Translations under genes and position numbers: made by a program | Shown: positions 30,977 to 63,637 of the stretch, one piece after another | Position numbering within the stretch: position 1 is the stretch's first letter | How the letters are laid out: each line of letters begins with the position of its first letter | Origin: Lachnospiraceae bacterium | GTDB lineage: Bacteria; Bacillota; Clostridia; Lachnospirales; Lachnospiraceae | Direction of reading: 5' to 3' | Assembly: GCA_015057025.1 (NCBI GenBank) | Contig: SVFD01000001.1 | Location: 186,001-250,000, forward strand | DNA length: 64,000 nucleotides | Notes under the pieces: generated by a model | The model's input: only the letters and a program-made list of their open reading frames with translations | Database searches by the model: none | Told to the model about the DNA's origin: nothing

Positions 30977-30996
30977 AGGAACAGAGTGAAATTAAA

Positions 30997-32076: not shown

Positions 32077-32089
32077 AGAGGATTATAGT

Positions 32090-33124: not shown

Positions 33125-33140
33125 CAAAGGAGTGATGGAA

Positions 33141-40671: not shown

Positions 40672-40759
40672 AAGATAAAGCGTTTACAGTATATTTAAGA
40701 TTTATAATATAGGGCATCGGAATTAGGATGCGATTAAAGAAAAGTAAGGAGGGAGCAGC

Positions 40760-42613: not shown

Positions 42614-42681
42614 AAGTGTATTTTAGTTTTTTATAAAAGGCAACTTAAAAACCTTGTATTAAAGTAAAAAGGAGGGGCGTT

Positions 42682-44217
42682 ATGAGAATTACAAATAAAA
42701 TTATGCAGAATAACACCCTGTACAACATCAACCAGAACAAAATTTTACAGGATAAGTTAAATACCCAGATTACAACCAAGAAGAAGGTTACCAAGCCTTC
42801 CGATGATCCGGTTGTGGCAATTCGTTCATTGCGTTTAAGAAGTAATTTAAGTCAGGTAAGCCAGTACAATGAAAAGAATATTCCCGATGCGGAACAGTGG
42901 TTGGAATTGACAGAGTCTGCTATTCAGTCTACCGTTGACGTTGTATCTAATATGATTACAGAATTTCAGAGAGGTTCTAAAAGTAACCTGCAGACCTCTG
43001 ACCGTGCAGTAATCTTAGAGAGTTTGAAGCAGCTTCGTGATGAGGTGTATGCTACCGGTGATTCAGATTTTGCAGGAAGAACTATTTTTACGGGTTACAG
43101 AACCGATACGAAATTATCGTTTACGGAAGATACGACGCAGGAATATGTTATAAACGAGCAGATTACCAATACAGATATTGACACCCAAACCTATGTGGAT
43201 ATGGGTGAGTTAACAACTTTAAATGAGACAAATTATAACAGTGCGGATATGACAACGGAGCAGGAAGTGGAGATGTATGAAATTCACAGAATCCGTCTTG
43301 CATATGAGAATTTGGACGATGGTATGGTGCCTACTATCAATCAGGCAATCGGATATGATGAAAATGGCAAGACTCTTTACCAAAGCCTTGGTACCGTAAC
43401 AACAATGTCTGCGAATGGGGCAACAGATCCTTACAGAGTAGTGTCTGATCCAAATTATGCGGATTATGATCCGGATGCAATCATTTTTGTACCGGAAACC
43501 GGAGAATTACTTCTTGGTGAAACTGCCTATACGGCTATGCAGGCATTAGATCCGGCACAGGAAATAAAAATTACTTACCAGAAGAGTGAGTGGGCAGATA
43601 ATGATTTAAGACCTGAACACTATTTTGCTTGTTCATCCAATGGTATTGATTATAATGCGGAATATCTTACTAAAGTGGGAAATACTGCAAAGCAGGTGAT
43701 TGAATATGACGTAGGCTTTAATCAGCAACTTCAGGTAAATACTACTGCGGACGAAGTGTATCTGCATGGTATAGGAAGAGCAGTAGACGAAGCATTAGAT
43801 CTTTTGGATCAAATGGATAAAATCGATGCGGTAGTAGCAAAGCTTGAAGGTATGGTGGGCAATGAGGCCTATGATCAGGATACAGTTGAGGCGAAGCTTG
43901 CGGCGGCAAAGAAGGCCCAGACCTATATGGAAGATACCCTGCAGAAAACCTTTGAAAGCGGTATTACTGAAATGCAGGGATATTTGGATACGGTAAATAT
44001 GGCATATACGACGGTGGGTAACCGTTCGTTGAGACTTACATTGATTGAGAATCGTCTCGGCAATCAGCAGACTGCATTTGAAACATTGACTTCTGAGAAT
44101 GAAGATGCAGATATTGCAGATTTGGCAGTGCAGCTAAGTAGCGCGGAACTTACCTATGATGCAGCATTAGCGGCAACAGGCAAACTTTTACAGACATCAT
44201 TAATGAACTATATTTAA
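42682..44217 (+). CDS. flgL: Flagellar hook-associated protein 3 (FlgL)
   Basis: A 511-residue HAP3, the second junction ring, related to flagellin at both ends (N-terminal M-R-I-T-N-K-I-M, then Q-I-T-T-K-K-K-V-T-K-P-S-D-D-P, and a C-terminal coiled coil with L-R-L-T-L-I-E-N-R-L). It is longer than usual (about 300), from a large central insertion of about 200 residues that would be surface exposed. AGGAGGGG precedes the ATG. Confidence 0.9.
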   Translation: MRITNKIMQNNTLYNINQNKILQDKLNTQITTKKKVTKPSDDPVVAIRSLRLRSNLSQVSQYNEKNIPDAEQWLELTESAIQSTVDVVSNMITEFQRGSKSNLQTSDRAVILESLKQLRDEVYATGDSDFAGRTIFTGYRTDTKLSFTEDTTQEYVINEQITNTDIDTQTYVDMGELTTLNETNYNSADMTTEQEVEMYEIHRIRLAYENLDDGMVPTINQAIGYDENGKTLYQSLGTVTTMSANGATDPYRVVSDPNYADYDPDAIIFVPETGELLLGETAYTAMQALDPAQEIKITYQKSEWADNDLRPEHYFACSSNGIDYNAEYLTKVGNTAKQVIEYDVGFNQQLQVNTTADEVYLHGIGRAVDEALDLLDQMDKIDAVVAKLEGMVGNEAYDQDTVEAKLAAAKKAQTYMEDTLQKTFESGITEMQGYLDTVNMAYTTVGNRSLRLTLIENRLGNQQTAFETLTSENEDADIADLAVQLSSAELTYDAALAATGKLLQTSLMNYI

Positions 44218-44238
44218 TAAACGGAAGGTGGTATTGGT

Positions 44239-44694
44239 ATGGTAATGAATACTAGATTATTTGGGGAAGTAACAATTGATGACAGCAAAATGATTCATTT
44301 TCCGGGAGGAATTGTAGGATTTCCCGATTTGCAGGATTTTGCATTGATTCATGATACAGAGCAGGGAGCTAACGGCGGCATTCATTGGATGCAGTCTGTG
44401 CAGGAGTCTAATTTTGCAATGCCGGTTATTGATCCTTTGCGTGTAAAACCTGATTATAATCCTGAAGCGGATGATGAATTATTAAGTACAATCGGTGAAA
44501 TCAATCCCGACGAACTTCTGGTACTGGTTACCATTACGGTTCCTTCAGATTTAACCCAAATGACTGTAAACTTAAAGGCGCCTTTTGTAATTAATGTGGC
44601 TACCAGAAAAGCATGTCAGGTTATTGTGGAAGGATATGAGGTGAAATTCCCTGTCTACGACATCCTTCAAAAAATGAAAAAGGAGGGTGAGTAA
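44239..44694 (+). CDS. fliW: Flagellar assembly factor FliW
   Basis: A 151-residue FliW with the family strand pattern (F-G-E-V-T-I-D-D-S-K-M-I-H-F-P-G-G-I-V-G-F), then N-P-D-E-L-L-V-L-V-T-I and A-P-F-V-I-N. It binds and antagonises CsrA and couples its level to flagellin, setting hag translation. csrA follows with a one-base gap. GGAAGGTGG precedes the ATG. Confidence 0.95.
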   Translation: MVMNTRLFGEVTIDDSKMIHFPGGIVGFPDLQDFALIHDTEQGANGGIHWMQSVQESNFAMPVIDPLRVKPDYNPEADDELLSTIGEINPDELLVLVTITVPSDLTQMTVNLKAPFVINVATRKACQVIVEGYEVKFPVYDILQKMKKEGE

Positions 44695-44695
44695 G

Positions 44696-44911
44696 ATGTT
44701 AGCGTTATCCAGAAAGAAAAATGAAGCAATTGTAATTAACAATAATGTAGAAATTACCGTGCTTGAAATCAAAGGCGACCAGGTAAAGCTTGGTATATCT
44801 GCTCCTAAGGAGGTTCCTGTTTATCGTAAGGAAGTATACGTTCAGATTCAGGAAGCAAATAAGGAGGCTATGAACGTAGTTTCTACAGAGGCTTTAAACA
44901 AATTATTTTAA
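44696..44911 (+). CDS. csrA: Carbon storage regulator CsrA
   Basis: A 71-residue RNA-binding protein. M-L-A-L-S-R-K-K-N-E-A-I is the conserved start, and the C-terminal half has P-K-E-V-P-V-Y-R-K-E-V-Y. It binds GGA motifs in 5' leaders, blocking ribosome access; in Firmicutes the main known target is flagellin mRNA, with FliW as its antagonist. The ATG at 44696 with AGGAGG is preferred over a GTG 9 bases earlier. Confidence 0.96.
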   Translation: MLALSRKKNEAIVINNNVEITVLEIKGDQVKLGISAPKEVPVYRKEVYVQIQEANKEAMNVVSTEALNKLF

Positions 44912-50224: not shown

Positions 50225-50252
50225 TAAACTTTTCAACCAAAAAGGCCGATAC
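50225..50252 (+). promoter_or_regulatory. Sigma-28-like promoter of the head-group/glycan cluster
   Basis: TAAA (50225-50228), a 16-base spacer and GCCGATAC (50245-50252), against consensus TAAA-N15/16-GCCGATAA. This resembles the flgM promoter in the same window. A TATAAT at 50258-50263 lacks a matching -35 box. Confidence 0.7.
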
Positions 50253-50263
50253 TATTTTATAAT

Positions 50264-50446
50264 ATATTTATGGGCATAGTATGCGATTTTGAACGAGGAT
50301 GCTGAGCTCATTATAAGCTAGGATGGCGTCAGGTTGCAGGGAAGCAGTTTTAGTGTGGTAGAAAATCCACTGTGACAAGGGCGCAGTGGATTTTATTTGT
50401 CAAATTAATGAAGAACACAAATCTTAATGTGAGATGGGGGATACAA
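50264..50446 (+). promoter_or_regulatory. Structured leader with GGA motifs and an attenuator-like hairpin
   Basis: The 180-base leader has A-C-G-A-G-G-A-T-G, C-T-A-G-G-A-T-G-G and G-C-A-G-G-G-A-A-G motifs, the last in a small loop (TGC-AGGGAA-GCA). Such GGA motifs are the binding site of CsrA, encoded in the same window. It ends with an 11-bp stem AAAATCCACTG/CAGTGGATTTT (50362-50394) and a T-rich tail that can act as attenuator. Confidence 0.5.
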
Positions 50447-51178
50447 ATGAAGGTAATAATGCTTGCGGCAGGAAAAGGAACAAGAATATCAAGAATGGTA
50501 AAAGCTGTGCCCAAATCGACATTGCCAATTGACGGAGTTCCTTTAATACGCATTACTGCTGAAATGCTACAGAAACGAGGAATGGATGTATCTGTTTGTG
50601 TGGGCTATCAGCATAACCAAATCAGGGAAGCTTTAAAGGGTATGGATATTACATATTATTATAATCCCTTCTATGATGTCACAAATAGTATTGGCAGTTT
50701 ATGGCTTGCTCAAGATGCATTAAAAGAGGATGATGATGTATTAATTTTAAATGCTGATGTTTTTTTTACAGAAGAAATTCTAAATATGCTTTTAGTGGAC
50801 GAGCGAGAGGTTGTTATGATGGTTGACAAAACACGTACGAAGACTGGCGATTATTTCTTTTCAACTACCGATAGTGGATGCATTAGAGCGTATGGAAAGG
50901 AGTTGCCTTTGCAACAAAGAAAGTGCGAATATGTGGGAATAGCTAAAGTTACAAAAAGTTTTGTGCCGTTGTTTAAGCAAAGATTAAATGAACTTGTAGG
51001 TCAGCAGAAACATAATCTTTGGTGGGAAAATGTTATTTATTCATTTACCGATAATCAGGAACGTGAGATTTATACTAAAGATGTGGAAGGACATTTTTGG
51101 TCGGAAATAGACTATTTTGATGATTATGAAAGAATATTGAATCATATAGCAAAAAAAGTTGAGCGCGGAGGCATATAA
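50447..51178 (+). CDS. LicC/PntC-like cytidylyltransferase
   Basis: A 243-residue nucleotidyltransferase. N-terminal M-L-A-A-G-K-G-T-R-I is the NTP-binding loop; Y-Y-N-P-F-Y-D-V-T-N-S-I-G-S-L matches the substrate-binding segment shared by phosphocholine cytidylyltransferase (LicC) and 2-aminoethylphosphonate cytidylyltransferase (PntC), and the metal Asp sits in L-N-A-D-V. E-I-D-Y-F-D-D-Y closes the domain. It should make a CDP-head group. The next gene, overlapping by one base, is an aminoethylphosphonate-transaminase-like enzyme, an order also known for PntC. GGGGGAT precedes the ATG. Confidence 0.78.
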   Translation: MKVIMLAAGKGTRISRMVKAVPKSTLPIDGVPLIRITAEMLQKRGMDVSVCVGYQHNQIREALKGMDITYYYNPFYDVTNSIGSLWLAQDALKEDDDVLILNADVFFTEEILNMLLVDEREVVMMVDKTRTKTGDYFFSTTDSGCIRAYGKELPLQQRKCEYVGIAKVTKSFVPLFKQRLNELVGQQKHNLWWENVIYSFTDNQEREIYTKDVEGHFWSEIDYFDDYERILNHIAKKVERGGI

Positions 51179-52245
51179 TGAAATTATTTACAGTTGGACC
51201 GGTAGAAATGTATGAAGAAACGCGTGTTGTTAGAGGCAAGCAATTGCCGTATTTTAGGACTCCCGAGTTTTCGGATATGATGCTAGAAGCGGACGAGCTA
51301 TTGAAAAAGATGATTTCAGCACAGCAAGGTGCAAAAACCATTTATTTAACGGCTTCAGGAACCGGAGCAATGGAAGCAACAATTATGAATTGTTTCGATG
51401 AAAAAGATAAAATTTTGGTTATTAACGGTGGTGGATTTGGTGCTCGGTTTGTGCAGATATGTAAAGTGCATAACATTTGTTGTGATGAAATCAAGGTAGG
51501 ATTCGAAGAAAATATTACAGAGGAAAAGTTGCGTTTGTATGCACAGGGGGGATATACAGGGCTGTTAGTTAATATTCATGAGACATCAATTGGTAAAATC
51601 TATCCTATAGAAATTATTAGTGATTTTTGCAAAAAAAATAATTTGTATTTAATTGTTGATGCAATAAGTTCCGTTTTTGCGGATGAATATGATATGCAGA
51701 AATATAATATTGATGCGACAATTTTTAGCTCGCAAAAGGCACTTTCGCTTGCTCCCGGAATGTCAGTGGTGGTTTTAAGTCCTAGAATTATTGAAGAAAG
51801 AGTAAATAAAAAAATTGTTCGCAGTATGTATTTTGATTTCAAGGATTATATTTATAATTTTCAACGTGGGCAAACGCCATTTACGCCTGCGGTAGGGGTT
51901 TTTATTGAATTTTATAACATGATAAAATATATACAAAGTATAGGAATAGAAAACAAAATTGAAGAGACTAGAGTTCGAGCAATGAAATTTAGAGAAAAGG
52001 CCCAAGAACTCGGATTTGAAATTCCTAAGTTTGAAAAAAGTAATGCTTTAACACCAATACTATTCGAGGAAAAAGGAAAATTAGTTTATTCAATCTTAAA
52101 AGAAAAGTACGGATATATTGTCACACCTTCCGGTGGAGAATTCGCTGAGCGAATATTGAGAGTGGGGCATATAGGTAATTTAAATGATGAAGATGGATTG
52201 CAGTTGTTGAACGCAATGAGAAAAGTGGTAGATGAATTAAAATAG
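51178..52245 (+). CDS. Class V aminotransferase, AEP transaminase-like
   Basis: A 355-residue PLP enzyme of the fold-type I class V group. The PLP lysine is in F-S-S-Q-K-A-L-S (Lys187), with V-D-A-I-S-S (PLP ring Asp) before it, and T-V-G-P-V-E at the N-terminus as in alanine-glyoxylate and 2-aminoethylphosphonate transaminases. It would interconvert an aldehyde and a primary amine. Translationally coupled to the cytidylyltransferase. Lengths are normal. An alternative role is amination of an aldehyde made by LuxEC at the end of the cluster. Confidence 0.8.
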   Translation: MKLFTVGPVEMYEETRVVRGKQLPYFRTPEFSDMMLEADELLKKMISAQQGAKTIYLTASGTGAMEATIMNCFDEKDKILVINGGGFGARFVQICKVHNICCDEIKVGFEENITEEKLRLYAQGGYTGLLVNIHETSIGKIYPIEIISDFCKKNNLYLIVDAISSVFADEYDMQKYNIDATIFSSQKALSLAPGMSVVVLSPRIIEERVNKKIVRSMYFDFKDYIYNFQRGQTPFTPAVGVFIEFYNMIKYIQSIGIENKIEETRVRAMKFREKAQELGFEIPKFEKSNALTPILFEEKGKLVYSILKEKYGYIVTPSGGEFAERILRVGHIGNLNDEDGLQLLNAMRKVVDELK

Positions 52246-52274
52246 TAATAAGTATTTAGTAAAGGGAAAATAGG

Positions 52275-53777
52275 ATGCGAAGATATATCAAAAGGCAAAT
52301 TATAGATATGATAGAATCGATGCTGCAGGCATGTGATTATTTGAGAAAGTCTATAGGACAAAATACTATGTCTTCATATGTTGAACTAAGAAATGATTTG
52401 GATGCATGTGTAGAATGTATTTTAGTGTATTCTGCAGAGGAAAGTAAAGTGTTTCCTAATTTTCAAGAGTCTGTTTTTGCCTTTTCGAGGTATTCTGCTT
52501 TCTTTTTTGAAGAGAAGAATATCGAAAAAAAGAAAAGTGATAATATGAGTATGATAAAAAGTTTGGAATCTGCTTTGAATATTTTAATCAATGATATTCC
52601 GAATGATAGATTGGAAATAGTATTCATGCCTTATAAAGCGGATATGTGGTTTAGTATGGAAACTATTTGGGAAGCGGCTTTGGAAGATGATGAATGTAAT
52701 GTTAAAGTAGTGCCTATTCCATATTTTGATATAACAAATCCGCGCAATATATCTTTGCATTATGAAGCGGAAAGATTCCCTTCAAAGGTTGAGTGTGTGC
52801 ACTATAATCAATATTCTGAAGCGAAAAGCCATCCGGATATTATCGTTATTCATAATCCGTATGATGATGCGAATAATATGACGAGAGTGCCGGAGCGTTT
52901 TTATTCATCAGTGTTAAAACAGAATACCGGGAAATTAGTTTATTCACCGTATCACACATTTGCTACATATAGCGGAGATAGAAATATTCCCCTTTTGGCA
53001 GCACCGGCGACATTAAATTCTGATGTGATTATATGTCAATCAAGACGTCTAAAAGAAATTTATGAAGAAATTGGATTCCCGAAAGATATGTTGGTTGATT
53101 TCGGCTCTCCTAAGATTGATGCGATTGTGAATAATAAAAACGCAAAAGTTGAAATTCCGGAAGACTGGAAGAAAAAAATATCAAATAAAAAAGTCTTTTT
53201 ACTTAATACACATTTATCGTATTTTCCTACGGCAGAGCAATTAAAAGAAAAGGTAGGTAATTATGCAATACGTTATCACGAAGAAATTGCAAAAGCTTTT
53301 TTGAATAGAGATGATTGTGTGCTTATTTGGAGACCACATCCGTTAATGAAAAACATGCTGGAAGGAAGATTTACACAATGCTTAGAATATGTAAATGATT
53401 TTGAACAACGCGTTAGAAATGCTGACAATGGTATTATTGATAACCTGGGTGATTATCGAATTTCTTTTTCGTGTTCTGATGCGATGATATCTACATGGAG
53501 TTCTTTGATTAATGAATATATGGTAACTCAAAAACCTATAATGATTTTTCAGTCGCAGATTGAGAAGGAAGTTGCGGATAAATCACCTATTAATTGTAAT
53601 GTGAATTATTTTCGATTTGGCAAAGGTAATTTAACATTTGAACAATTTAGAGATAATATTGTCAATGGCATCGACCCTAAATTTGAAGAGAGAATAGCCG
53701 AGATAAATAAAGCTTTTCCTAATTTAGATGGTACGGCAGGAAAGAAAATTTATCGATATTTAAAAGAACAAAGCTGA
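52275..53777 (+). CDS. CDP-glycerol glycerophosphotransferase-like protein
   Basis: A 500-residue protein with a helical N-terminus (about 1-105) and a C-terminal TagF/TagB-like GT-B domain (about 110-490). The conserved H-P motif is W-R-P-H-P-L-M (about 350-356), and late F-S-C-S-D-A-M-I-S-T-W-S-S corresponds to the CDP-binding stretch S-D-x-S-S. The family moves phospho-alcohol units from CDP-precursors to a chain. It may add the head group activated by the LicC-like enzyme. Confidence 0.75.
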   Translation: MRRYIKRQIIDMIESMLQACDYLRKSIGQNTMSSYVELRNDLDACVECILVYSAEESKVFPNFQESVFAFSRYSAFFFEEKNIEKKKSDNMSMIKSLESALNILINDIPNDRLEIVFMPYKADMWFSMETIWEAALEDDECNVKVVPIPYFDITNPRNISLHYEAERFPSKVECVHYNQYSEAKSHPDIIVIHNPYDDANNMTRVPERFYSSVLKQNTGKLVYSPYHTFATYSGDRNIPLLAAPATLNSDVIICQSRRLKEIYEEIGFPKDMLVDFGSPKIDAIVNNKNAKVEIPEDWKKKISNKKVFLLNTHLSYFPTAEQLKEKVGNYAIRYHEEIAKAFLNRDDCVLIWRPHPLMKNMLEGRFTQCLEYVNDFEQRVRNADNGIIDNLGDYRISFSCSDAMISTWSSLINEYMVTQKPIMIFQSQIEKEVADKSPINCNVNYFRFGKGNLTFEQFRDNIVNGIDPKFEERIAEINKAFPNLDGTAGKKIYRYLKEQS

Positions 53778-53811
53778 TATGCTGAAAATAATTATTTGGA
53801 GGTAAATAGTA

Positions 53812-55449
53812 ATGGCAGGTACATACAACGGTCAATATGATGTAGAAGATAAGGGGATGTTTGCTTCGCACTTAGAGGCACTTGAATTATTAGGCATCTT
53901 ACATGACATTTGTATTGAGAAAGGGTATAAGTATTCCTTGGTGGATGATACGTTGACCTTGTATGTAGAAAAAAAACCCTTTTCGATAGCAGAACCGGGA
54001 ATAAGTCTGATTGTGGAGTATGGAACATATTGTAAATTGGTTGAGGATGTTAAACGATATGTAGAATTAAATAATTCATATGTATTTGTAAATTATGAAA
54101 ATGCAAACCAGTATGATAATATATGCTTTTGGCTTGCAAAAAAAAATCGAGTCAATTTGCCGATAGAACGTAAACAGGATGAAATTTATTATTATACACA
54201 TGTTACAGTGCTACCTGTTTTTTTTGTAAGTGATTATTTTGTGAAAAGAACGAAGGCTTACAAAATTATGACAAAAACAATGAGGTGCTTACACTCGCGG
54301 AAGCTGACTTCGCAAGTCCCTATATTTAGAAGAATTCGATTTGCCAAAAGAAGAATGTTAAGTAGATATTATCGTAAACGAAGAGATAAAGTTTCGATTG
54401 CGTTACTAGAACAACAATTGGCGGAATTACATGGCGATTATAAGAAAGGTTTCTATATGGGAAATCCTCTTGTGAAGCGATGTGAAATTGAAGAAGTCGA
54501 GCTTGTTAAGTTTGAGGGGCAACCATGTTATGTAAGTAAACATGCAGTGAAGATGGTTGATAGATATAGCAAGAAATTTAAAGATGGAATTACAAAAAAC
54601 AGAAAGGCGGATTTATTACTTAAAGGTGGAGAAACATTACGGCGTGTACAATATATACAGCTTGAGTTGCTGAAGGAATTTGATGCAGTATGCAGAAAGC
54701 ATGGACTGCGTTATAACATTGCTTTTGGTACGCTTTTAGGGGCGGTAAGGCATGGTGGATTTATACCATGGGATGATGATATTGATGTATTAATGCCAAT
54801 TGAAGATTATCTTAAGCTGGATAAGGCTATTCAAGAAGAAATAGATTCTGATAAATACTTTTTGCGAACAATAGATTCGGAACCGGACAATAATTTGACT
54901 TATAAAAGGCTTGTTCGTAAAGGAACCGTATATGCTTCGCCGGGACGTGAACATATGAAGGCTCAATACGCGGTGTGCATGGATATTTTACCGGTATTTC
55001 ACCAGACTAATAACAGATTCTATCATTGGATTCAAACAAAGATATGCAGATTTTATCGTCGGGCAACATGGGCACATGCCGGAGCAGATGCTATTAAGAA
55101 ACCTTTAAGGCGTGCATGGTATATGCAAGTAAGGAAAAAAGGAAATAGAAAGAACTATCAGTTATTTATGAAATGGGCTATGTCGTCACGCTGTACAAAT
55201 CAATTTTACTCATATTTTCATGCCCCTGTAAGAAGTCCGTATAGAGCGTATTTTTTGAGTGAAGAGGCTTTCAATGATACGATTGAAATAGAATTTGAAG
55301 GATACAAGTTTCTTGCTCCGAAGGATTGCAACAGGGCGCTGAATTATGTGTATGGTGGAGATTATATGCTTTATCCAAGTCGTTTGAGCGGAAGAAAACC
55401 TGAACATCTTGTGGTGGTGGAAATTGGAGATTTATATTCCTATGATTAG
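53812..55449 (+). CDS. LicD family protein with two related domains
   Basis: A 545-residue protein. The C-terminal domain (about 275-500) is an intact LicD/fukutin-type nucleotidyltransferase with F-G-T-L-L-G-A-V-R-H-G-G-F-I-P-W-D-D-D-I-D-V, whose Asp cluster binds metal. The N-terminal 130 residues look like a degenerate copy (L-E-L-L-G-I-L-H-D-I-C-I-E-K-G-Y-K-Y) lacking the D-D-D-I-D set. LicD moves phosphocholine from CDP-choline to sugars. Here the substrate could be the product of the upstream cytidylyltransferase. GGAGG precedes the ATG. Confidence 0.85.
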   Translation: MAGTYNGQYDVEDKGMFASHLEALELLGILHDICIEKGYKYSLVDDTLTLYVEKKPFSIAEPGISLIVEYGTYCKLVEDVKRYVELNNSYVFVNYENANQYDNICFWLAKKNRVNLPIERKQDEIYYYTHVTVLPVFFVSDYFVKRTKAYKIMTKTMRCLHSRKLTSQVPIFRRIRFAKRRMLSRYYRKRRDKVSIALLEQQLAELHGDYKKGFYMGNPLVKRCEIEEVELVKFEGQPCYVSKHAVKMVDRYSKKFKDGITKNRKADLLLKGGETLRRVQYIQLELLKEFDAVCRKHGLRYNIAFGTLLGAVRHGGFIPWDDDIDVLMPIEDYLKLDKAIQEEIDSDKYFLRTIDSEPDNNLTYKRLVRKGTVYASPGREHMKAQYAVCMDILPVFHQTNNRFYHWIQTKICRFYRRATWAHAGADAIKKPLRRAWYMQVRKKGNRKNYQLFMKWAMSSRCTNQFYSYFHAPVRSPYRAYFLSEEAFNDTIEIEFEGYKFLAPKDCNRALNYVYGGDYMLYPSRLSGRKPEHLVVVEIGDLYSYD

Positions 55450-55510
55450 GTGCTATTGTATATGGCTAAAGAAGTTTGAAGACTAATATATTTGGTAAGG
55501 AGAAAGATAA

Positions 55511-56296
55511 ATGAGATTAGCACTAGAAAATGATATTGAAGATATATTACAAATTTTAAAAACAAATTTAGGTGTGAGTATATATATGTATATTAATCTC
55601 AAGACATATGGTTTATCCAATCCCAATATACAGGTATGGGTACATGAAGATGCAGATGAAATCGATATTGTGGCGATGCGGTATTATACAGCATTAAGAT
55701 TTTTTTGCGTGAAGAATAGTATTGATACTATTGAATTAATTGCGGAGTTGATAGATTCTGTAGAACATAAAGTGATATATACATCTTACGATGTTGCTCA
55801 ACAGTTATATGAGAGATATAAAGATATTTATATTTTGGAAGAGAGCGTAGCTGTTCAGTTAACAAAATATCGCAATTTTAATTTTGAATCTATTGAAAAA
55901 GCAACTGAGGACGATATTGACGAAATAGCAACTATGATTTTAGACGATGATTTTTATCGAGGTCAGTATACGCATGAAGGATTAGTGACAGAATTATTGG
56001 AAAGAATGCGAACCGGAATGGGTAGAAATTATATTATCCGAAAGGATGGAAAGATAGTTGTTCATGATGGAATAATGGCGCAAACAGATGATGTTGCGGT
56101 TGGCGGATTATTGTTGTGTCACCGCGATTATAGAAAGCAGTTTTTGGGCGAAACAATGGAGAGTTTTTTAATAAAAACAATGAACGATGAAGGCATTGAG
56201 TTGTATGCTTACCACCTTGGAGAAAAACGCTGGAGATCAATGGAACGTGCAAAAAATGTAATAAAAGCACATTGTGGAAGATTAATAAAAAAGTAG
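55511..56296 (+). CDS. Probable GNAT-type acetyltransferase
   Basis: A 261-residue protein; the C-terminal half has a GNAT-like motif A (V-G-G-L-L-L-C-H-R-D-Y-R-K-Q-F-L-G-E-T-M). The N-terminal half may be a second degenerate copy. It would acetylate an amine or sugar. The pattern is weaker than in typical GNATs, so the assignment is tentative. AAGGAG precedes the ATG. Confidence 0.55.
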   Translation: MRLALENDIEDILQILKTNLGVSIYMYINLKTYGLSNPNIQVWVHEDADEIDIVAMRYYTALRFFCVKNSIDTIELIAELIDSVEHKVIYTSYDVAQQLYERYKDIYILEESVAVQLTKYRNFNFESIEKATEDDIDEIATMILDDDFYRGQYTHEGLVTELLERMRTGMGRNYIIRKDGKIVVHDGIMAQTDDVAVGGLLLCHRDYRKQFLGETMESFLIKTMNDEGIELYAYHLGEKRWRSMERAKNVIKAHCGRLIKK

Positions 56297-56350
56297 AGAA
56301 CCAGATTAATAAAGAGAGTGTGCGATTCATAATTTGGAGGAACGATAAGT

Positions 56351-57094
56351 ATGTTATCAAATAAAAATATAGTGGTAACCGGATGTCTGCAGGGAATTGG
56401 AAAAGCTACATTGGAGAAATTTGCAAAAAACGGAGCGAATGTATTTGCTTGTGCTTACCAACAAAATGAAGAGTTTGAGAGATTTTGTGATGCGCTTGCA
56501 ACGGAAAATGGCGTACAGGTTATACCGATATATTTTGATATGGCAGACATTACATCTGTCAAGGAAGCGGCAAAGACTATACAAAAATCTAAAATGGAGA
56601 TACATGGACTTGTAAATATTGCGGGAATAAACAGAGATGCATATTTTAACATGATAACTTATCAGGATATGGTTGATACCTTTCAAGTGAATGTATATTC
56701 TCAGATTATTTTGTCGCAGTATATTGTTAAACTTATGCAACGATATAAAACGGAGGGGAGCATTGTTTTTACATCAAGCATAACTGCTCTTGACGGAAAT
56801 GCCGGACAAGTTACATACGGAGCATCTAAAGCAGCGCTTTTAGGTGCTATGAGAAGTATGGCTCTTGAACTTGGAACAAGTGGAATTCGAGTGAATGCAG
56901 TTTGCCCGGGAGTAATCAAAACGCCCATGACTGAAAAACTTTCTCAAGAGGTAATAGAAAGCAAGGAAAAGATGATGGAGATTCCAAGGCTTGGAGAAGC
57001 GAATGAGGTTGCAGATGTTTTCATGTATCTGATGTCAGATTTATCAACGCATATATCAGGACAGACGATAAGAGTTGATGGAGGTATCAGATGA
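56351..57094 (+). CDS. Short-chain dehydrogenase/reductase (1)
   Basis: A 247-residue FabG-like SDR. Cofactor site T-G-C-L-Q-G-I-G, catalytic Ser/Tyr/Lys in S-S-I-T...V-T-Y-G-A-S-K, and R-V-D-G-G at the C-terminus. The usual N-N-A-G reads V-N-I-A-G. It reduces or oxidises a keto group with NAD(P). The next SDR overlaps its stop by 4 bases, and the two are about 45 percent alike by eye. Confidence 0.9.
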   Translation: MLSNKNIVVTGCLQGIGKATLEKFAKNGANVFACAYQQNEEFERFCDALATENGVQVIPIYFDMADITSVKEAAKTIQKSKMEIHGLVNIAGINRDAYFNMITYQDMVDTFQVNVYSQIILSQYIVKLMQRYKTEGSIVFTSSITALDGNAGQVTYGASKAALLGAMRSMALELGTSGIRVNAVCPGVIKTPMTEKLSQEVIESKEKMMEIPRLGEANEVADVFMYLMSDLSTHISGQTIRVDGGIR

Positions 57095-57855
57095 TGAAGA
57101 TGTTGGAAGGAAAAAATGTAATTGTAACCGGAACTGCAAGAGGAATCGGTCATAAAATGGTTGAAATTTTTGCGCAGAATGGAGCAAATGTATTTGCCCA
57201 TGCGCGAAAAGAAACACAAGAACATAAGCAGTTCTGTGAACAGTTGACAGTGAAAGAGAGTGTTCAGATTATACCGGTTTATTTTGATTTACAGGATGAA
57301 GATGCTATTAAGGATGCAGTGAAAAGTATCAGAAGTACAAAATTATCTATAGATGGTCTTGTAAATAATGCGGGTGTCACTTATAATGCACTTTTTCAAA
57401 TGACAAATATGGATGAACTGCGTAAACAATTTGAGGTGAATTTTTTTGCTCCATATTTGTTTACACAATACATATCTAAACTTATGATTAGAAATAAAAA
57501 AGGTAGTATTGTGAATGTATCATCGTCAGCTGCGCTTGATGGAAATTCCGGTAAATCTGCTTATGGTGCATCAAAGGCAGCTCTACTTACAATGACACTT
57601 AGTATTGCAGAGGAGTTGGGCGCGTCGGGTATTCGGGCAAATGTGATTTGTCCGGGCGTGACAGAAACAGATATGGTGTCTACAATGCCGGAATATATTT
57701 CAGAAGTTCAAAAGGAAGCTGCTTTCTTGAAAAAATTGGGAAAGACAGATGATATTGCTAATACTGCAATGTATTTGCTTTCAGATTATTCTTCCTATAT
57801 TACGGGACAGGTATTTAGAGTGGATGGCGGCGTTACGCAATATTCAAAGAGGTAG
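57091..57855 (+). CDS. Short-chain dehydrogenase/reductase (2)
   Basis: A 254-residue FabG-like SDR with T-G-T-A-R-G-I-G, N-N-A-G, S-S-S-A...S-A-Y-G-A-S-K and V-D-G-G. All catalytic residues are present. Start ATG overlaps the previous stop (ATGA). A tandem duplicate of the upstream SDR; the two may perform successive steps or form one heteromeric enzyme. Confidence 0.9.
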   Translation: MMKMLEGKNVIVTGTARGIGHKMVEIFAQNGANVFAHARKETQEHKQFCEQLTVKESVQIIPVYFDLQDEDAIKDAVKSIRSTKLSIDGLVNNAGVTYNALFQMTNMDELRKQFEVNFFAPYLFTQYISKLMIRNKKGSIVNVSSSAALDGNSGKSAYGASKAALLTMTLSIAEELGASGIRANVICPGVTETDMVSTMPEYISEVQKEAAFLKKLGKTDDIANTAMYLLSDYSSYITGQVFRVDGGVTQYSKR

Positions 57856-57863
57856 GAATTATT

Positions 57864-58652
57864 ATGCTTGATAAAACACTGGAGCTGACATTAGAAGGTA
57901 GAATACGCAAAGATATTTTAGTAGCAGCAAAGCAAGCCGGAAAGGTTGGAGCACATATTGCACCTTCCTTGTCGTTGGTTGAAATATGTTCAGCAATCTT
58001 TGAGAATTTTGATGAGTCAAGAGATGTTTTTGTGCTTAGCAAAGCTCACGGTGCTCTTGGTTATTATGCAACAATGCATCAAGTCGGAATGATAACAGAT
58101 GAGCAATTTAATTCTTTCGAGATAAATGGCGGAGAGTTTCCGGGACAACCAAGTCGGTCTGCGAATAATCATGTGGATTATTCGAGCGGCTCGTTAGGCA
58201 TGGGACTTTCGTATGCGGCCGGTAGAGCATGGGGAGATGCAGGAGCCGGAGTATATGTTGTGCTTGGTGATGGAGAGCTTGATGAAGGCTCAAATTGGGA
58301 AGCGGCATCTGTTATATCTGCAAAGAAACTGAAGAATATATGTGCAATTGTGGATTGTAACGGTTTACAATCAGATGGTAAATGTGAAGATATTCTACAA
58401 AAAGATTTAAAGCGGATATGGGAAGCACATGGTTGGAATACGATAGTTTGTGATGGTCATGAAGCGAAAGAAATTAGTCGAATTATCAAAGATATAAATT
58501 CAGATAAACCTACAGTTATTCTTGCTCAAACGGTAAAAGGTAAAGGAGTATCCTTTATGGAAAATAATAATGAATGGCATCATCATGAGCTGAATGAGGA
58601 ACAGTATTTGCAGGCAATTTCGGAAATAGAGGAGAACTATGGATTACGTTAA
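57864..58652 (+). CDS. Transketolase, N-terminal subunit
   Basis: A 262-residue thiamine-diphosphate-binding half of a split transketolase. The TPP motif is G-D-G-E-L-D-E-G...D-C-N-G-L-Q (G-D-G-x26-N). It needs the C-terminal subunit encoded next. It moves a two-carbon ketol unit between sugars. The copy in a glycan-type cluster, rather than with central metabolism, suggests a special substrate. AGGTAGGA precedes the ATG. Confidence 0.92.
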   Translation: MLDKTLELTLEGRIRKDILVAAKQAGKVGAHIAPSLSLVEICSAIFENFDESRDVFVLSKAHGALGYYATMHQVGMITDEQFNSFEINGGEFPGQPSRSANNHVDYSSGSLGMGLSYAAGRAWGDAGAGVYVVLGDGELDEGSNWEAASVISAKKLKNICAIVDCNGLQSDGKCEDILQKDLKRIWEAHGWNTIVCDGHEAKEISRIIKDINSDKPTVILAQTVKGKGVSFMENNNEWHHHELNEEQYLQAISEIEENYGLR

Positions 58653-59595
58653 AAATAACAGAATGTTGTCGTTGCTTGGCCAAAGAGGTACCTTCGGAAC
58701 AGTGTTGAATGAATTGGCAAAAGACGATGAAAGAATCGTTGCAATGTCGGCTGATTTGGCACGAGTATCAGGATTAGAAAAGTTTATTAAGAATTATCCG
58801 GATAGATATATAAACGTTGGAATAGCGGAAGAAAACGCTGTTGGTATGGCAGCAGGAATTGCCGATGCAGGTAAGATTCCTTTTGTTACTACTTTTTCTA
58901 ATTTTGCAGCAATGAGAGCGAATGAGTTTGTCAGACATTTTATGGCATATATGAATTGCAATGTTAAATTGGTGGGTTTGAGTAGTGGATTTGCAATGGA
59001 ACTTTTTGGTACAACGCATTATGGTTTGGAGGATGTGGCAGTATTAAGATGTATGCCGGATATTACGATACTTTCGCCCTGTGATTGTATGGAAGTTGCC
59101 AAATGTGTTGAAACGGCCGTGGCAATAGATGGACCGGTTTATTTGAGGCTTTCAGGGAAAATGAATCAGCCAATTGTACATAGGGCGGATTATGAATTTA
59201 AAGTTGGACAAGCGATAACTGAAAAAGAAGGTTCGGATTGTGTTGTTTATGCAACAGGAAGTATGGTAAGCGTCGCACTGAAAGCAGCTAAAGAATTGGA
59301 AAGCGAAAACATTTCGGTTAAGGTTGTTAATATTCATACTATTAAGCCAATCGACAGGGAGTGCATTCTTGTCAATCGAGATAAGAAATGTATGTTTTCT
59401 TTGGAAGAACATTCAAGAATCGGTGGGCTTGGAACTGCGATTTCTGAGGTGCTGTCTGAAGAAGGATATCAAGGAAGACTTATCAGAATGGGAACTTTGG
59501 ACGAATATAAAAAAGCAGGCACGTATGAATATATGTTGGAACAACATGGGTTAACGGTATCTAATTTGGTTAATACAATAAAAAATAATATATAA
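58639..59595 (+). CDS. Transketolase, C-terminal subunit
   Basis: A 318-residue subunit with the pyrimidine-binding domain (E-E-N-A-V-G-M-A-A-G-I-A, its Glu activating TPP) and the C-terminal transketolase domain (E-E-H-S-R-I-G-G-L-G-T-A). It overlaps the N-terminal subunit gene by 14 bases, so the two are translated together. Confidence 0.93.
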   Translation: MDYVKNNRMLSLLGQRGTFGTVLNELAKDDERIVAMSADLARVSGLEKFIKNYPDRYINVGIAEENAVGMAAGIADAGKIPFVTTFSNFAAMRANEFVRHFMAYMNCNVKLVGLSSGFAMELFGTTHYGLEDVAVLRCMPDITILSPCDCMEVAKCVETAVAIDGPVYLRLSGKMNQPIVHRADYEFKVGQAITEKEGSDCVVYATGSMVSVALKAAKELESENISVKVVNIHTIKPIDRECILVNRDKKCMFSLEEHSRIGGLGTAISEVLSEEGYQGRLIRMGTLDEYKKAGTYEYMLEQHGLTVSNLVNTIKNNI

Positions 59596-59615
59596 AATTT
59601 AGGAGGACTTTTACA

Positions 59616-59855
59616 ATGACAAATTTAGAAATTTACAACAATGCTTTTATTGAGTGTTTAGGAGTAACAGAAGATCAGCTTGCAGGCTTGAAATATCAAG
59701 ATGTTGAATCTTGGGATTCTGTTGGTCACATGGGTCTGATGGCAGAGCTTGAAGATGCCTTTGATATTATGATGGACACAGATGATATTATTGATTTTAG
59801 TTCATACGAGAAGGGAAAAGAAATTTTATCTTCCAATTATGAAATTGAGTTTTAG
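59616..59855 (+). CDS. Acyl carrier protein
   Basis: A 79-residue ACP. The phosphopantetheine Ser35 lies in W-D-S-V-G-H-M, a variant of D-S-L. Its helical acidic composition is normal. It probably carries the acyl group activated by the next gene product, separate from fatty acid synthesis. AGGAGG precedes the ATG. Confidence 0.88.
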   Translation: MTNLEIYNNAFIECLGVTEDQLAGLKYQDVESWDSVGHMGLMAELEDAFDIMMDTDDIIDFSSYEKGKEILSSNYEIEF

Positions 59856-59870
59856 TGATTGAGGTGACTC

Positions 59871-61283
59871 ATGTGGGATTTCGAGCAATTCGAAGAAAAA
59901 ATAGCATTAAAGGATGAATACGGGAAAGAAGTAACCTATATTCAGCTTAAGAATATGACAAAACAATTAGCCGGTGTCATTGGTAAAAGGACGCTGGTTT
60001 TTTGCCTGTGCGAAAATAAAATAGGTTCGGTAGTGGGATATTCTGCGTGTATTAACGAGAATATTGTATCTGTTCTTTTGAATGCTCACTTAGAAAGAGA
60101 ATTGCTTAGGAATCTTATCGAAATTTATCAACCTGAATTTGTTTGGGCACCGGCGGAGATGCAAACAGAGTTTAAAGCATATCATAATGTGTATGAGATA
60201 GATGACTATGCATTGCTTAAAACAGGATATGAGCTCGAGTATAATTTATATCCGGAATTAGCTTTGTTGCTTACTACATCAGGTTCGACGGGCAGCCCAA
60301 AGTTTGTACGCCAAAGTTATACAAACATTAAGGCAAATACGGATTCAATTGTTCAGTATTTAAATTTGGATTGCACAGAAAAGGCAATTACTACATTGCC
60401 GATGAATTATACTTATGGTTTGTCTATTATTAATACACATCTTATGGTAGGAGCAACAATCCTTTTGACAGATAAAAGTCTTATGCAAAAGGAGTTTTGG
60501 AACTTTTTCAAAGAAGAGGGTGCAACATCTTTTGGCGGTGTGCCCTATACCTACGAGATGTTAGATAAGCTAAGATTTTATAGAATGAATTTGCCGTCAT
60601 TGCGTTATATGACACAGGCAGGAGGAAAGATTATTCCTGAACTTCATAAGAAGTTTGCAGAATATGCCTGTCAGAATGAAAAAAAGTTTGTAGTCATGTA
60701 TGGTCAGTGTGAAGCAACAGCCCGTATGGGATATTTGCCGGCAGATAAAGCATTAGAAAAATGTGGTTCTATGGGAATCGTAATTCCCGGGGGCAAATTC
60801 AATTTAATAGATGCTGATGGGAATGATATTAAAGGACCGAATATAACCGGTGAACTGGTATATGAGGGAGCCAATGTTACTCTGGGATATGCTGAATGTA
60901 TGAAGGATTTGTCAAAGGGAGACGAAAGAGGAGGCATTCTGCAGACCGGAGATATGGCGCAGAAGGATGAAGACGGATTCTTTTATATTGTTGGAAGAAA
61001 GAAAAGATTTCTTAAAATCTATGGAAATCGAGTTAATCTTGATGAAATTGATCGCCTGATTAAGGCTAAATACAGTGATTGCGAGTGCGCAAGTGCAGGT
61101 GTTGATGATCACATGTATATTTTTGTGACAAATGAGTCGAAGGCAGACGAAATAAGAAATTTTATCATTGAAAAAACAAAGCTTAATCCGAAAGCGTTTA
61201 AGGCGATTGTAATTGATGAAATACCTAAGAATGATGCGGGTAAAATTCTGTATAAAGAGCTGGCAAAGTATTATGATACATAA
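59871..61283 (+). CDS. AMP-forming acyl/acid ligase
   Basis: A 470-residue ANL-superfamily enzyme that adenylates a carboxylic acid and probably loads it onto the ACP. P-loop T-T-S-G-S-T-G-S-P-K (about 137-146), Y-G-Q-C-E-A-T-A-R (A5), Q-T-G-D-M-A (A7), and the C-terminal K-N-D-A-G-K lysine. Short compared with acyl-CoA synthetases (about 520) but normal for ACP-loading forms. GAGGTGAC precedes the ATG, which lies 15 bases after the ACP stop. Confidence 0.87.
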   Translation: MWDFEQFEEKIALKDEYGKEVTYIQLKNMTKQLAGVIGKRTLVFCLCENKIGSVVGYSACINENIVSVLLNAHLERELLRNLIEIYQPEFVWAPAEMQTEFKAYHNVYEIDDYALLKTGYELEYNLYPELALLLTTSGSTGSPKFVRQSYTNIKANTDSIVQYLNLDCTEKAITTLPMNYTYGLSIINTHLMVGATILLTDKSLMQKEFWNFFKEEGATSFGGVPYTYEMLDKLRFYRMNLPSLRYMTQAGGKIIPELHKKFAEYACQNEKKFVVMYGQCEATARMGYLPADKALEKCGSMGIVIPGGKFNLIDADGNDIKGPNITGELVYEGANVTLGYAECMKDLSKGDERGGILQTGDMAQKDEDGFFYIVGRKKRFLKIYGNRVNLDEIDRLIKAKYSDCECASAGVDDHMYIFVTNESKADEIRNFIIEKTKLNPKAFKAIVIDEIPKNDAGKILYKELAKYYDT

Positions 61284-61306
61284 AATCGAGAGGGTTTAAG
61301 AATAAA

Positions 61307-63637
61307 ATGAATTTTGATGATATTCTAAAAATTGAACCATATTCTCTGGCAAAAGAGGAAAAGCGGCAACTTCTTAATGAAAGACTTTTTGCGTTGACAA
61401 AATTACATAAAGAAAATTGCGAAGAATATGCCAAAATGTTGAAGGGTGTATCTTTCGATATTACGCAAGCAAAATCTTACGAAGACCTTCCGTTTTTGCC
61501 TGTTCGATTATTTAAAGAGTTGGATTTGAAGAGTGTTTCGCAAGAAGAGATTGTAAAAACAATGAATTCGTCAGGAACTACAGGCCAAAAGACTTCAAAA
61601 ATATATCTTGATAGAACAACATCATCGAATCAACAAAAGACCATGGTAAAAATTGTCTCTCATTTTACAGGATCTTCACGTATGCCGATGATTATAATTG
61701 ATAGTCCGACTGTGCTTAAAGACCGTAAACAATTTTCAGCCAGAGGCGCAGGGATTCTTGGCTTTTCAATATTTGGCTCAAAAAAAATCTATGGTCTTGA
61801 TGAAAATATGAATCTGGATGTAAATGGTATCACTGGTTTTTTGGAACAGCATCAGGGACAAAGAATATTTCTTTTTGGCTTTACATTTATGATATGGCAA
61901 CATTTTTATAAAGAATTGGAGAGGTTGAAGGCTGAAGGAATAACATTCAATTTGTCTAATAGCGTATTGATTCATGGAGGCGGATGGAAGAAACTGCAGA
62001 ATGAAGCGGTAAGTCCGGAAGAGTTTCATGATAGGTTAAAATCGGTCTGTGGAATTGACTGTATTCATGACTATTATGGAATGGTTGAACAGACCGGCTC
62101 TATTTATATGCAGTGTGAATGTGGTCATTTGCATACGAGTATCTTTTCGGATGTAATAGCAAGAAGAGCAAAAGATTTTTCGATATGCGATTATGGTGAA
62201 ACAGGGATATTGCAGGTAGTATCAACAATACCGGAATCTTATCCGGGACATTCTCTTTTGACGGAGGATGAGGGTGTGATTCTTGGTGAGGATGATTGTC
62301 CCTGTGGCAGAAAAGGTAAATATTTTAGAATAAACGGTCGTATAGCTAAGGCTGAAATTAGAGGCTGCAGTGATACCTATGCAGCAGGGTTGAGAAAGAG
62401 CGAGCCGGACAGTGAAGAAGTCCATGAAGGCATTTCACTGGTGAGGGAAGTACTCTCTAAGGTGAACTTTCTGGTCGGAAATTCTCGAAATATAACGGAT
62501 GCATCCAAAATCAGAGTATTAAAGCCGTTTGATGATTTGGTTGTTGATTTTTTGAACTCCCTGTCAAAAGAACTGATGACAGAAAAACAATCAAGAATGT
62601 TTCCGGATGTTGTGACTTTGGGATTTTGGCTCCGTAAATCATCGATTTTATCATTAAAAGACAGATTTATAAGGAATGATAATTCGGTAGGAAGAGGCGT
62701 TGCTTTTCATATCGCACCATCAAATGTACCTGTTAATTATGCATATTCTTTATTTACAGGATTAATATGCGGAAATGCTAATATCGTGCGAATTCCATCC
62801 AAAGATTTTCCTCAGGTTTCTGTAATAAACAAGGCAATTAATAAAGTATTATCAGAAAAAAAATATGAAAAACTTAGACCTTATATCACGTTGGTTCGCT
62901 ATGAACGAGATAAAAAAATCAATGATTATTTTTCAAGTATATGTGATGTAAGAATAATATGGGGTGGTGATAATACCATTATAGAACTTCGCCAATCACC
63001 CATGCCAATGAGAGCAAAGGAAATAACATTTGCTGACAGATATTCGCTTGCCATAATAGATGCAGATTCATACTTAGCTGAAGAAAATAAACAAAGAGTA
63101 GCAATGGATTTTTATAATGATACATATTTGTCAGATCAAAATGCATGTACGAGTCCCAGAGTAGTTGTGTGGATGGGTGAGTGTGTTTCGGAAGTTAAAG
63201 AATTGTTTTGGAAAGAACTTTTAAAATTAGCAGAGTTAAAATATCGTTTTCAAACAATTCAAGGAGTTGATAAGTTATCTCAATTATATATTTCTGCAAC
63301 GCAGTACGGTCAAGTTTCTATAAAGAACAACTATAACAATGTGCTTTATCGAGTGGAGGTGGATAAACTTAGCTCGGAGCTCATGAAATATAGGGGTAAT
63401 TCCGGCTATTTTTATGAATATAGTTGTCATGATATAACGGAACTGGAAGATTTTTGCAATGATACGCATTGTCAGACTGTATGTTTAGTTGGAGACAATT
63501 CGATTATAAAACCTCTAATGGATTCCGGAATAAAAGGTATTGATAGAGTTGTGCCGGTTGGTCATACAATGGATTTTGATTTGTTGTGGGATGGTTATAA
63601 CTTAGTAGAAGAATTGACAAGGAAAATTGTCTACTAA
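61307..63637 (+). CDS. LuxE-LuxC fusion: acyl-protein synthetase and acyl reductase
   Basis: A 776-residue fusion. Residues about 1-365 form a LuxE-type acyl-protein synthetase (S-S-G-T-T-G-Q-K-T-S near 87; D-Y-Y-G-M-V-E-Q). Residues about 390-776 form a LuxC-type acyl-CoA/ACP reductase with I-A-P-S-N-V-P-V-N-Y, and catalytic Cys near 614 in Q-N-A-C-T-S-P. In luminous bacteria LuxE passes the acyl group to the LuxC Cys, and LuxC releases it as aldehyde with NADPH. Here the acyl donor is probably the ACP/ligase pair and the product an aldehyde. The fusion makes one chain of the two partners. Confidence 0.9.
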   Translation: MNFDDILKIEPYSLAKEEKRQLLNERLFALTKLHKENCEEYAKMLKGVSFDITQAKSYEDLPFLPVRLFKELDLKSVSQEEIVKTMNSSGTTGQKTSKIYLDRTTSSNQQKTMVKIVSHFTGSSRMPMIIIDSPTVLKDRKQFSARGAGILGFSIFGSKKIYGLDENMNLDVNGITGFLEQHQGQRIFLFGFTFMIWQHFYKELERLKAEGITFNLSNSVLIHGGGWKKLQNEAVSPEEFHDRLKSVCGIDCIHDYYGMVEQTGSIYMQCECGHLHTSIFSDVIARRAKDFSICDYGETGILQVVSTIPESYPGHSLLTEDEGVILGEDDCPCGRKGKYFRINGRIAKAEIRGCSDTYAAGLRKSEPDSEEVHEGISLVREVLSKVNFLVGNSRNITDASKIRVLKPFDDLVVDFLNSLSKELMTEKQSRMFPDVVTLGFWLRKSSILSLKDRFIRNDNSVGRGVAFHIAPSNVPVNYAYSLFTGLICGNANIVRIPSKDFPQVSVINKAINKVLSEKKYEKLRPYITLVRYERDKKINDYFSSICDVRIIWGGDNTIIELRQSPMPMRAKEITFADRYSLAIIDADSYLAEENKQRVAMDFYNDTYLSDQNACTSPRVVVWMGECVSEVKELFWKELLKLAELKYRFQTIQGVDKLSQLYISATQYGQVSIKNNYNNVLYRVEVDKLSSELMKYRGNSGYFYEYSCHDITELEDFCNDTHCQTVCLVGDNSIIKPLMDSGIKGIDRVVPVGHTMDFDLLWDGYNLVEELTRKIVY

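Follow-up and report, generated by a model that had tools for sequence, protein, structure and literature searches.

A twelve-gene cluster among flagellar genes of a Lachnospiraceae bacterium as a possible two-module island for flagellin-glycan decoration

The DNA analysed here (the window) is a stretch of 64,000 nucleotides, positions 186,001 to 250,000 of the forward strand of contig SVFD01000001.1, from the Lachnospiraceae bacterium assembly GCA_015057025.1, a genome of 2.65 Mb that is about 98% complete. Its subject is a cluster of twelve open reading frames (ORFs) at 50447-63637, all on the + strand and separated by intergenic gaps of -14 to +61 bases, which bears out the packed, co-directional arrangement given in a preliminary description of this DNA. 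The start given there, 50225, precedes the cluster by some 150-220 bases. None of its listed ORFs begins at that position; the start codon of gene 1 is ATG 50447 or the in-frame GTG 50372. The family assignments made at that time stand in Pfam and NCBIfam profile searches, with caution for gene 5 as a GNAT protein and for gene 10, a weak match to acyl carrier protein (ACP). A scan of 27000-64000 with Rfam gave no match at gathering score.

Genes 1 to 4 are termed module A. Gene 1 (50447..51178) encodes a LicC/PntC-like cytidylyltransferase (NTP_transf_3, 52 bits) with LicC (1jyk) and PntC-AEPT (6pd1) as best Protein Data Bank (PDB) matches, and gene 2 (51178..52245) encodes a class-V aminotransferase (Aminotran_5; 316 bits to PDB 3f0h) whose best NCBIfam match was PhnW-AepZ. 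The gene 3 product (52275..53777) is CDP-glycerol glycerophosphotransferase-like, or TagF-like (Glyphos_transf PF04464, 50.7 bits), and gene 4 (53812..55449), encoding a LicD-domain phosphotransferase (PF04991, 135 bits), is the sole LicD match of the host genome. Gene 5 (55511..56296), a possible N-acyltransferase, had no Pfam match at E 0.001 and was called GNAT-like through its homologue L088 (34%), which sits in a locus with class-V aminotransferase, nucleotidyltransferase and LicD genes. Genes 6 to 12 are termed module B. Gene 6 (SDR1, 56351..57094) and gene 7 (SDR2, 57091..57855) encode FabG-like short-chain dehydrogenases/reductases (SDRs) by profile matches. Gene 8 (57864..58652; PF00456 Transketolase_N; best PDB match the split transketolase 6yak) and gene 9 (58639..59595; Transket_pyr PF02779 and Transketolase_C PF02780; 233 bits to 6yaj) encode the N-terminal and C-terminal subunits of a transketolase, the latter with an altered acceptor motif; together they hold the complete domain set (thiamine pyrophosphate-binding, pyrimidine and C-terminal). 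Gene 10 (59616..59855) matched an NCBIfam ACP model weakly (19 bits, cut-off 66) and carries a DSV motif, the DS(V/I) carrier motif being kept in this protein and 10 aligned relatives (11 sequences). Gene 11 (59871..61283) encodes an AMP-forming acyl ligase (AMP-binding PF00501, 137 bits), and gene 12 (61307..63637) a fusion of LuxE acyl-protein synthetase (PF04443, 185 bits) and LuxC acyl reductase (PF05893, 95 bits), in which Cys354 of LuxE and the Cys of the LuxC motif QNACTSP line up with cysteines in the chains of 7xc6. These families and the aligned cysteines support the earlier suggestion that an acid is loaded on the ACP and reduced to an aldehyde.

The distribution of the two modules was compared over 299 genomes of the window's family, with the host genome included in both counts. 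Homologues of gene 12 (E ≤ 1e-10) were present in 37 genomes and homologues of gene 2 (E ≤ 1e-40) in 19, and both were present in three (G000, G213, G266) where 2.35 were expected. The same-genus genome G120 gave no match to gene 12, gene 2 or FliD at the thresholds used. Another genome of the family, G223, has a LuxE identical to that of Lachnoclostridium sp. An131, pointing to the Lachnospiraceae as the probable family. Among 20 gene-12 loci in family genomes, the ligase was found in 19, LuxC in 19, ACP in 15 and both transketolase subunits in six, and module A was represented by one LicD and one distant aminotransferase. A wider collection contained at least 589 LuxE relatives, of which the best 80 loci, selected for closeness to the window LuxE and not as a random sample, were studied; neighbours were counted in the 72 that were at least 12 kb long (the eight shorter loci were excluded), at E ≤ 1e-10 or, for ACP, 1e-5. 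Genes of module B were common in these 72 loci (ligase 71, LuxC 69, ACP 60, transketolase pair 34) and those of module A rare (gene 1-like nucleotidyltransferase 0, or one at a looser 45 bits; gene 2-like aminotransferase 2; TagF 0; LicD 3), with no gene 5-like sequence. Glycan loci that lack module B also contain homologues of genes 1 and 2. The two modules are separable: each half of the cluster is conserved together in other genomes, and the whole set of twelve is not.

The preliminary description placed all twelve genes in a single pathway: after reduction of an acid to an aldehyde and extension of the chain, gene 2 would introduce an amine and gene 1 would activate the product with CTP, so that the LicD/TagF-like proteins could attach it as one head group. 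The common direction and close spacing of the genes favour such a pathway, as do genome G213 (loci L038/L091) and loci L094 and L113, in which module B lies near an aminotransferase of the gene 2 family, the cytidylyltransferase there being a TagD-like fusion. However, a single twelve-gene pathway was rejected because the modules co-occur at chance level, and the scarcity of genes 1 and 2 in the LuxE loci and the glycan loci lacking module B also argue against it. CTP activation of a module B product found no support either, as no kinase family that would supply the phosphate for a LicC-type enzyme was seen among the profile matches shown for the twelve genes. The single pathway is thus regarded as quite unlikely.

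The preliminary description had not recognised the combination as a described one, but its ACP-FabG-ligase-LuxE-LuxC part has already been published in flagellin glycosylation islands. According to the available parts of two papers, the flagellin islands of Aeromonas group II and of Enterobacteriaceae carry ACP, an SDR of the 3-oxoacyl-ACP-reductase type, an AMP ligase, LuxE and LuxC (PMC7874193, PMC4875605). All of these have counterparts in the window (genes 6/7, 10, 11 and 12), where the cluster also lies in a flagellin/glycan island judging from its flanks and the Pse genes described below; the cluster differs in the fusion of LuxE with LuxC and in two additions, a second SDR and a split transketolase. 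The word transketolase is absent from the main texts of PMC7874193 and PMC4875605, and the combination of LuxE, LuxC, transketolase and glycosylation was not found in open-licence PubMed Central papers. Module B is an extension of the known cassette, with the split transketolase and the second SDR as its new parts. A minimal form (ACP-SDR-ligase-LuxE-LuxC-acetyltransferase) was seen in a Deinococcus glycan locus, and an adjacent pair of N- and C-terminal transketolase genes (TKN-TKC) in 34 of the best 80 LuxE loci, from several phyla, with an SDR gene alongside in 25 of the 80. The order SDR1-SDR2-TKN-TKC recurred in two of the 80, namely L148 from a Roseburia metagenome-assembled genome (MAG) and L167 from Kosakonia, a stretch with no match in Escherichia coli genomes. 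In L148 the order continues with ACP-ligase-LuxE-LuxC, accompanied by a NeuB-like gene and a 31% FliC; flagellin-like genes also lie near module B in L141 (Fretibacterium MAG), L162 (Roseburia faecis, where transketolase was not seen) and L038. Seven loci (L038, L042 and five of the 80) contain two LuxE genes, the second of which directly adjoins transketolase or NeuB in every case.

The closest structural relative of genes 8 and 9 is the two-subunit transketolase of Carboxydothermus hydrogenoformans (6yaj/6yak), but its acceptor residues His and Asp, in the motif HAGLTVGEDG of 6yaj, were missing from all 37 aligned rows of C-terminal subunits (only ORFs longer than 250 aa were counted). From the motif position, we take the missing residues to correspond to H461 and D469 of E. 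coli transketolase. The substitution D469T in the E. coli enzyme raised activity with propanal fivefold, according to the available part of PMC6310800. The two-carbon extension by transketolase that had been suggested for this cluster is plausible, with support from both neighbourhood and motif. In the 72 LuxE loci a NeuB-like gene was found in 21 and the transketolase pair in 34, with both in five (Fisher p 0.018, kinship uncorrected). In L099, L114, L118, L131, L136, L140, L154, L161, L164, L165 and L169, the NeuB-like gene lies less than 60 bases from ACP, ligase or LuxC, at the usual place of transketolase. NeuB standing in for transketolase is kept as a lead, since the role of NeuB may be confined to synthesis of the acceptor sugar.

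The acid used by module B was approached through the genes beside LuxE. Ten LuxE loci, five in window-family genomes and five in genomes of the Treponema bryantii family (L036, L047, L048, L049, L051; L183-L187), lie beside genes for 4-hydroxybutyryl-CoA dehydratase and/or butyrate/4-hydroxybutyrate CoA-transferase-like proteins, the L049 dehydratase scoring 806 bits to 1u8v. On the LuxE tree the 4-hydroxybutyrate label clusters within the glycan-linked family (3 changes vs 9.7 when shuffled), and LuxE/LuxC beside these genes is perhaps an unrecognised carboxylate reductase of 4-hydroxybutyrate metabolism. A second short acid appears in Vibrio cholerae O1, in the form of tetronate, which is 2,4-dihydroxybutyrate. 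The wbeK-wbeO genes of that organism also encode an ACP and a LuxC/LuxE-like reductase, with an alcohol dehydrogenase in place of the SDRs and, to our knowledge, no transketolase, and they differ from the window in serving O antigen, not flagellin. In the available part of PMC3441752, WbeL, a ligase of 471 aa, is predicted to function in making tetronate, and so to provide the acyl substituent of an amino sugar. We read module B and its relatives as a common acid-to-aldehyde unit whose consumers can be exchanged, the acid being a C4 dicarboxylate: succinate would lead to 4-hydroxybutyrate and malate to tetronate.

Masses from Aeromonas bear on the size of the acyl group. Aeromonas piscicola AH-3, with a group II island of the ACP/FabG/ligase/LuxE/LuxC type, is described in the available part of PMC7874193 as having flagellin decorated with a derivative of pseudaminic acid at 376.14 Da and with an unknown moiety of 102 Da. 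The computed values are 376.148 for mono-acetyl pseudaminic acid plus dihydroxybutanoyl and 102.032 for dihydroxybutanoyl, so that the reported AH-3 masses fit the short form of the acyl group proposed here. As far as the available parts of the sources go, Aeromonas caviae Sch3 has Pse5Ac7Ac (PMC9290775), and most A. caviae strains carry group IB islands, the group I legend naming no lux genes and the group of Sch3 being unstated (PMC7874193).

Two other substrates were weighed against a C4 dicarboxylate. The product of module B could be fatty, either an aldehyde or an acyl group, and end in a lipid-bearing sugar, as the authors of the Aeromonas and Enterobacteriaceae islands interpret the genes in the available parts of PMC7874193 and PMC4875605, and LuxE and LuxC of the bioluminescence fatty acid reductase do use long-chain acyl groups. 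Gene 12, however, scored far below the NCBIfam cut-offs for long-chain LuxE and LuxC (62 vs 550 and 54 vs 750 bits), a polar aldehyde would better suit transketolase and SDRs, and neither the link of LuxE loci to 4-hydroxybutyrate enzymes nor masses of 102 and 376 Da, as reported, suggest a long chain; a fatty product is therefore considered rather improbable. Alternatively, module B could add carbons to a sugar acid, for instance a uronic acid, and the resulting higher-carbon sugar would be moved by a glycosyltransferase, with no acyl group involved. Transketolase and NeuB-like enzymes each lengthen aldehydes, and DegT aminotransferase-like genes, present in 36 of the 72 LuxE loci, would fit such a sugar. 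The same loci, however, point to acyl chemistry, with genes matching the hexapeptide-acetyltransferase probe in 20 and the type II thioesterase probe in 23, and the 4-hydroxybutyrate linkage and the mass fits to an acyl group likewise argue against a lengthened sugar, which is regarded as unlikely.

The setting of the cluster is flagellar. On its 5′ side, at 39013..44911 (+), lie two FlgK-type genes (39013, 40760), an FlgL-type gene (42682), fliW (44239) and csrA (44687), recognised by Pfam (FlgK_D1 twice, Flagellin_N, FliW, CsrA), and on its 3′ side amidase/lysozyme-like genes and a phage-integrase-family gene are followed by FlaG, FliD, FliS and flagellin genes and two GT2-TPR-like genes (one of the two tested). 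About 20 kb upstream of the cluster, also on the + strand, are genes for the CMP-pseudaminic acid synthetase PseF (28214..28903; TIGR03584, 286 bits, cut-off 206), the pseudaminic acid synthase PseI (28905..29960; TIGR03586, 447 bits, cut-off 340; a NeuB match in the host genome) and the hydrolase PseG (29960..30976; TIGR03590, 155.2 bits, cut-off 153.6). The flagellar flanks and PseF/PseI/PseG in the window therefore indicate a flagellin-glycan setting, and the flagellar destination considered earlier is plausible in view of flagellar genes on both sides. A sigma-28-like pattern occurred seven times in the window vs 4.3 expected, a number reached in 13 of 100 shuffles. Taken as a whole, the cluster may be a mosaic island for flagellin-glycan decoration in which module A provides a phospho-amino group and module B a polyhydroxy acid, a reading to which we give somewhat less than even confidence.

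For module B, we infer the substrate, the order of steps, the product, the acceptor sugar and the attachment as follows. The ligase (gene 11) would load one carboxylate of malate or succinate onto the ACP (gene 10), LuxE would accept the acyl group and LuxC would reduce it to the semialdehyde. The split transketolase (genes 8/9) would then add a two-carbon ketol unit, an SDR would reduce the ketone to give 2,4,5,6-tetrahydroxy- or 4,5,6-trihydroxyhexanoate, and the remaining carboxylate would form an amide on an amino sugar of flagellin, probably pseudaminic acid, with gene 5 perhaps as the acyltransferase of the module. Genes 6-12 would in this way convert a C4 dicarboxylate through its semialdehyde, extended by a transketolase without the usual sugar-acceptor residues, into a polyhydroxy acyl group of six carbons that caps the pseudaminic-type sugars on flagellin, and elsewhere the same reductase would feed a NeuB-like enzyme (adding three carbons, if the aldehyde is the same), a simple SDR or 4-hydroxybutyrate metabolism. 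We advance this scheme tentatively, as possible rather than probable. If it is true, its short form would explain the 376- and 102-Da masses reported for Aeromonas flagellin, and a widespread cassette, described in print as serving fatty acids or liposugars, would instead produce short hydroxy-acid caps and combine with interchangeable enzymes downstream. The scheme would also give a testable structure for flagellin glycan masses, a natural transketolase that may take non-hydroxylated aldehydes, and a caution for mass spectra, since a C6H10O5 acyl group is isobaric with hexose (162.053).

A product of the proposed kind may have a precedent in Treponema denticola, whose flagellin glycan reportedly carries a 2-methoxy-4,5,6-trihydroxyhexanoyl group (Kurniyati 2017). 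The mass computed with this group is 450.185, and the group corresponds to the outcome of C4 plus C2. In the available part of PMC9481697, the T. denticola flagellin glycan is given as 450.2 Da. Genome G372 holds the best match to T. denticola PntC (80%).

Several observations weigh against this interpretation of module B and of its setting. Five genomes of the genus of G372 contained no LuxE-plus-transketolase locus, only LuxE loci of the 4-hydroxybutyrate type, and the T. denticola acyl group is therefore at best a precedent for the product. The 4-hydroxybutyrate loci themselves had no labelled ligase-like ORF in any of the five of the T. bryantii family, and the ORFs scanned near such loci contained neither a 4-hydroxybutyrate dehydrogenase nor a succinate enzyme. 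Ligase models do not separate dicarboxylates from other acids, and the best 25 NCBIfam matches include fatty-acid ligases, all far below cut-off. The Aeromonas values of 376.14 and 102 Da, as reported, are compatible with other formulae too. LuxE does not track transketolase, because the transketolase label scatters as if at random on the LuxE tree (33 changes vs a shuffled mean of 33.7; 43 of 108 inner branches weak). The GNAT call on gene 5 derives from a homologue whose Acetyltransf_1 match was barely over the cut-off (21.8 vs 20.7 bits), and the predicted fold of gene 5 is of low confidence, with a predicted local distance difference test (pLDDT) score of 44. Flagellin-like genes were found in only three of the 72 LuxE loci, most of which are in other or unclassified surroundings. 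The 10 ORFs scanned around the Pse genes did not include PseB, PseC or PseH, no search having been made elsewhere, and the pattern scan of the window placed no sigma-28-like site directly 5′ of gene 1.

Module A was examined through 19 loci with gene 2 homologues, from 18 other genomes. A LicC-like gene accompanied the aminotransferase in eight, a TagD-like/Gfo-Idh fusion in seven, both in none and neither in four, an exclusion with p 0.0066 (kinship uncorrected); LicD-like genes were present in 11 of the 19. In L078 and L092 the aminotransferase was masked by a longer ORF in ORF picking, though the genome search detects it. In L092 (5169-6509) and six further loci, a TagD-like cytidylyltransferase fused to a Gfo/Idh/MocA domain (one member scanned) takes the place of the LicC-like gene beside the aminotransferase. 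The alternative partners suggest one product made by two routes: in the LicC-like route a triose phosphate would be aminated before CTP activation, and in the route of TagD-like plus Gfo/Idh proteins glycerol phosphate would be activated and then oxidised and aminated. CDP-serinol, as a guess, would be compatible with both. In the window, gene 2 would accordingly aminate a small carbonyl compound that bears a phosphate (as a guess, converting dihydroxyacetone phosphate into serinol phosphate), gene 1 would activate the phospho-amine with CTP, and gene 3 and/or gene 4 would move the phospho-amino group onto the glycan.

Genes 1 and 2 are akin to PntC and 2-aminoethylphosphonate transaminase, and module A could therefore be thought to make CDP-2-aminoethylphosphonate by the PntC/AEPT phosphonate pathway, in which, according to the available part of PMC6697681, a related cytidylyltransferase and a class-V aminotransferase act in phosphonate tailoring. 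In the window, however, genes 1 and 2 are separate and unfused, gene 2 reached only 158 bits vs a PhnW-AepZ cut-off of 361, and the host genome had no match to phosphoenolpyruvate (PEP) mutase (PF13714) at E 0.001. Among the 19 genomes with gene 2 homologues, PEP mutase was over cut-off in one, on another contig, with weaker matches in four more, and phosphonopyruvate decarboxylase (TIGR03297) was over cut-off in none; the gene 2 family therefore seems to act in CDP-activated pathways free of phosphonates. The phosphonate pathway was rejected on these negative profile searches and is considered very improbable for module A.

The nearest described case, which module A resembles, is the type-A flagellin modification of Clostridioides difficile (CD0240-CD0244), where a LicC-like nucleotidyltransferase and a TagF-like phosphotransferase, like genes 1 and 3 here, lie by flagellin genes. 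In the available part of PMC10714395, the proposed role of CD0242 and CD0244 is to form and consume CDP-threonine, phosphothreonine being the phospho-amino compound that would pass to the flagellin glycan. The matches shown for the twelve genes include no family corresponding to the phosphoserine-phosphatase-like CD0241 or the methyltransferase CD0243, and the window cluster has an aminotransferase and LicD instead.

Some further features were observed around the cluster. The two FlgK-type genes stand in tandem at 39013-40671 and 40760-42613, and a 985-aa protein with propeller repeats, Y_Y_Y and an HD domain is encoded at 45158-48115, between csrA and the cluster. At 27321-33872, a formyltransferase-like gene precedes PseF-PseI-PseG and glycosyltransferase-like genes come after. 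The amidase/lysozyme-like genes between the cluster and flaG are paralogous (63731-64000 and L002:1-8929), and they, together with the phage-integrase-family gene (L002:1183-2067), may be a trace of island insertion. Near-identical sigma-28-like sites (TAAAGTATT...CTCCGATA) are located at 38035-38060, before the flagellar genes, and at L002:13032-13057, before the flagellin gene fliC.

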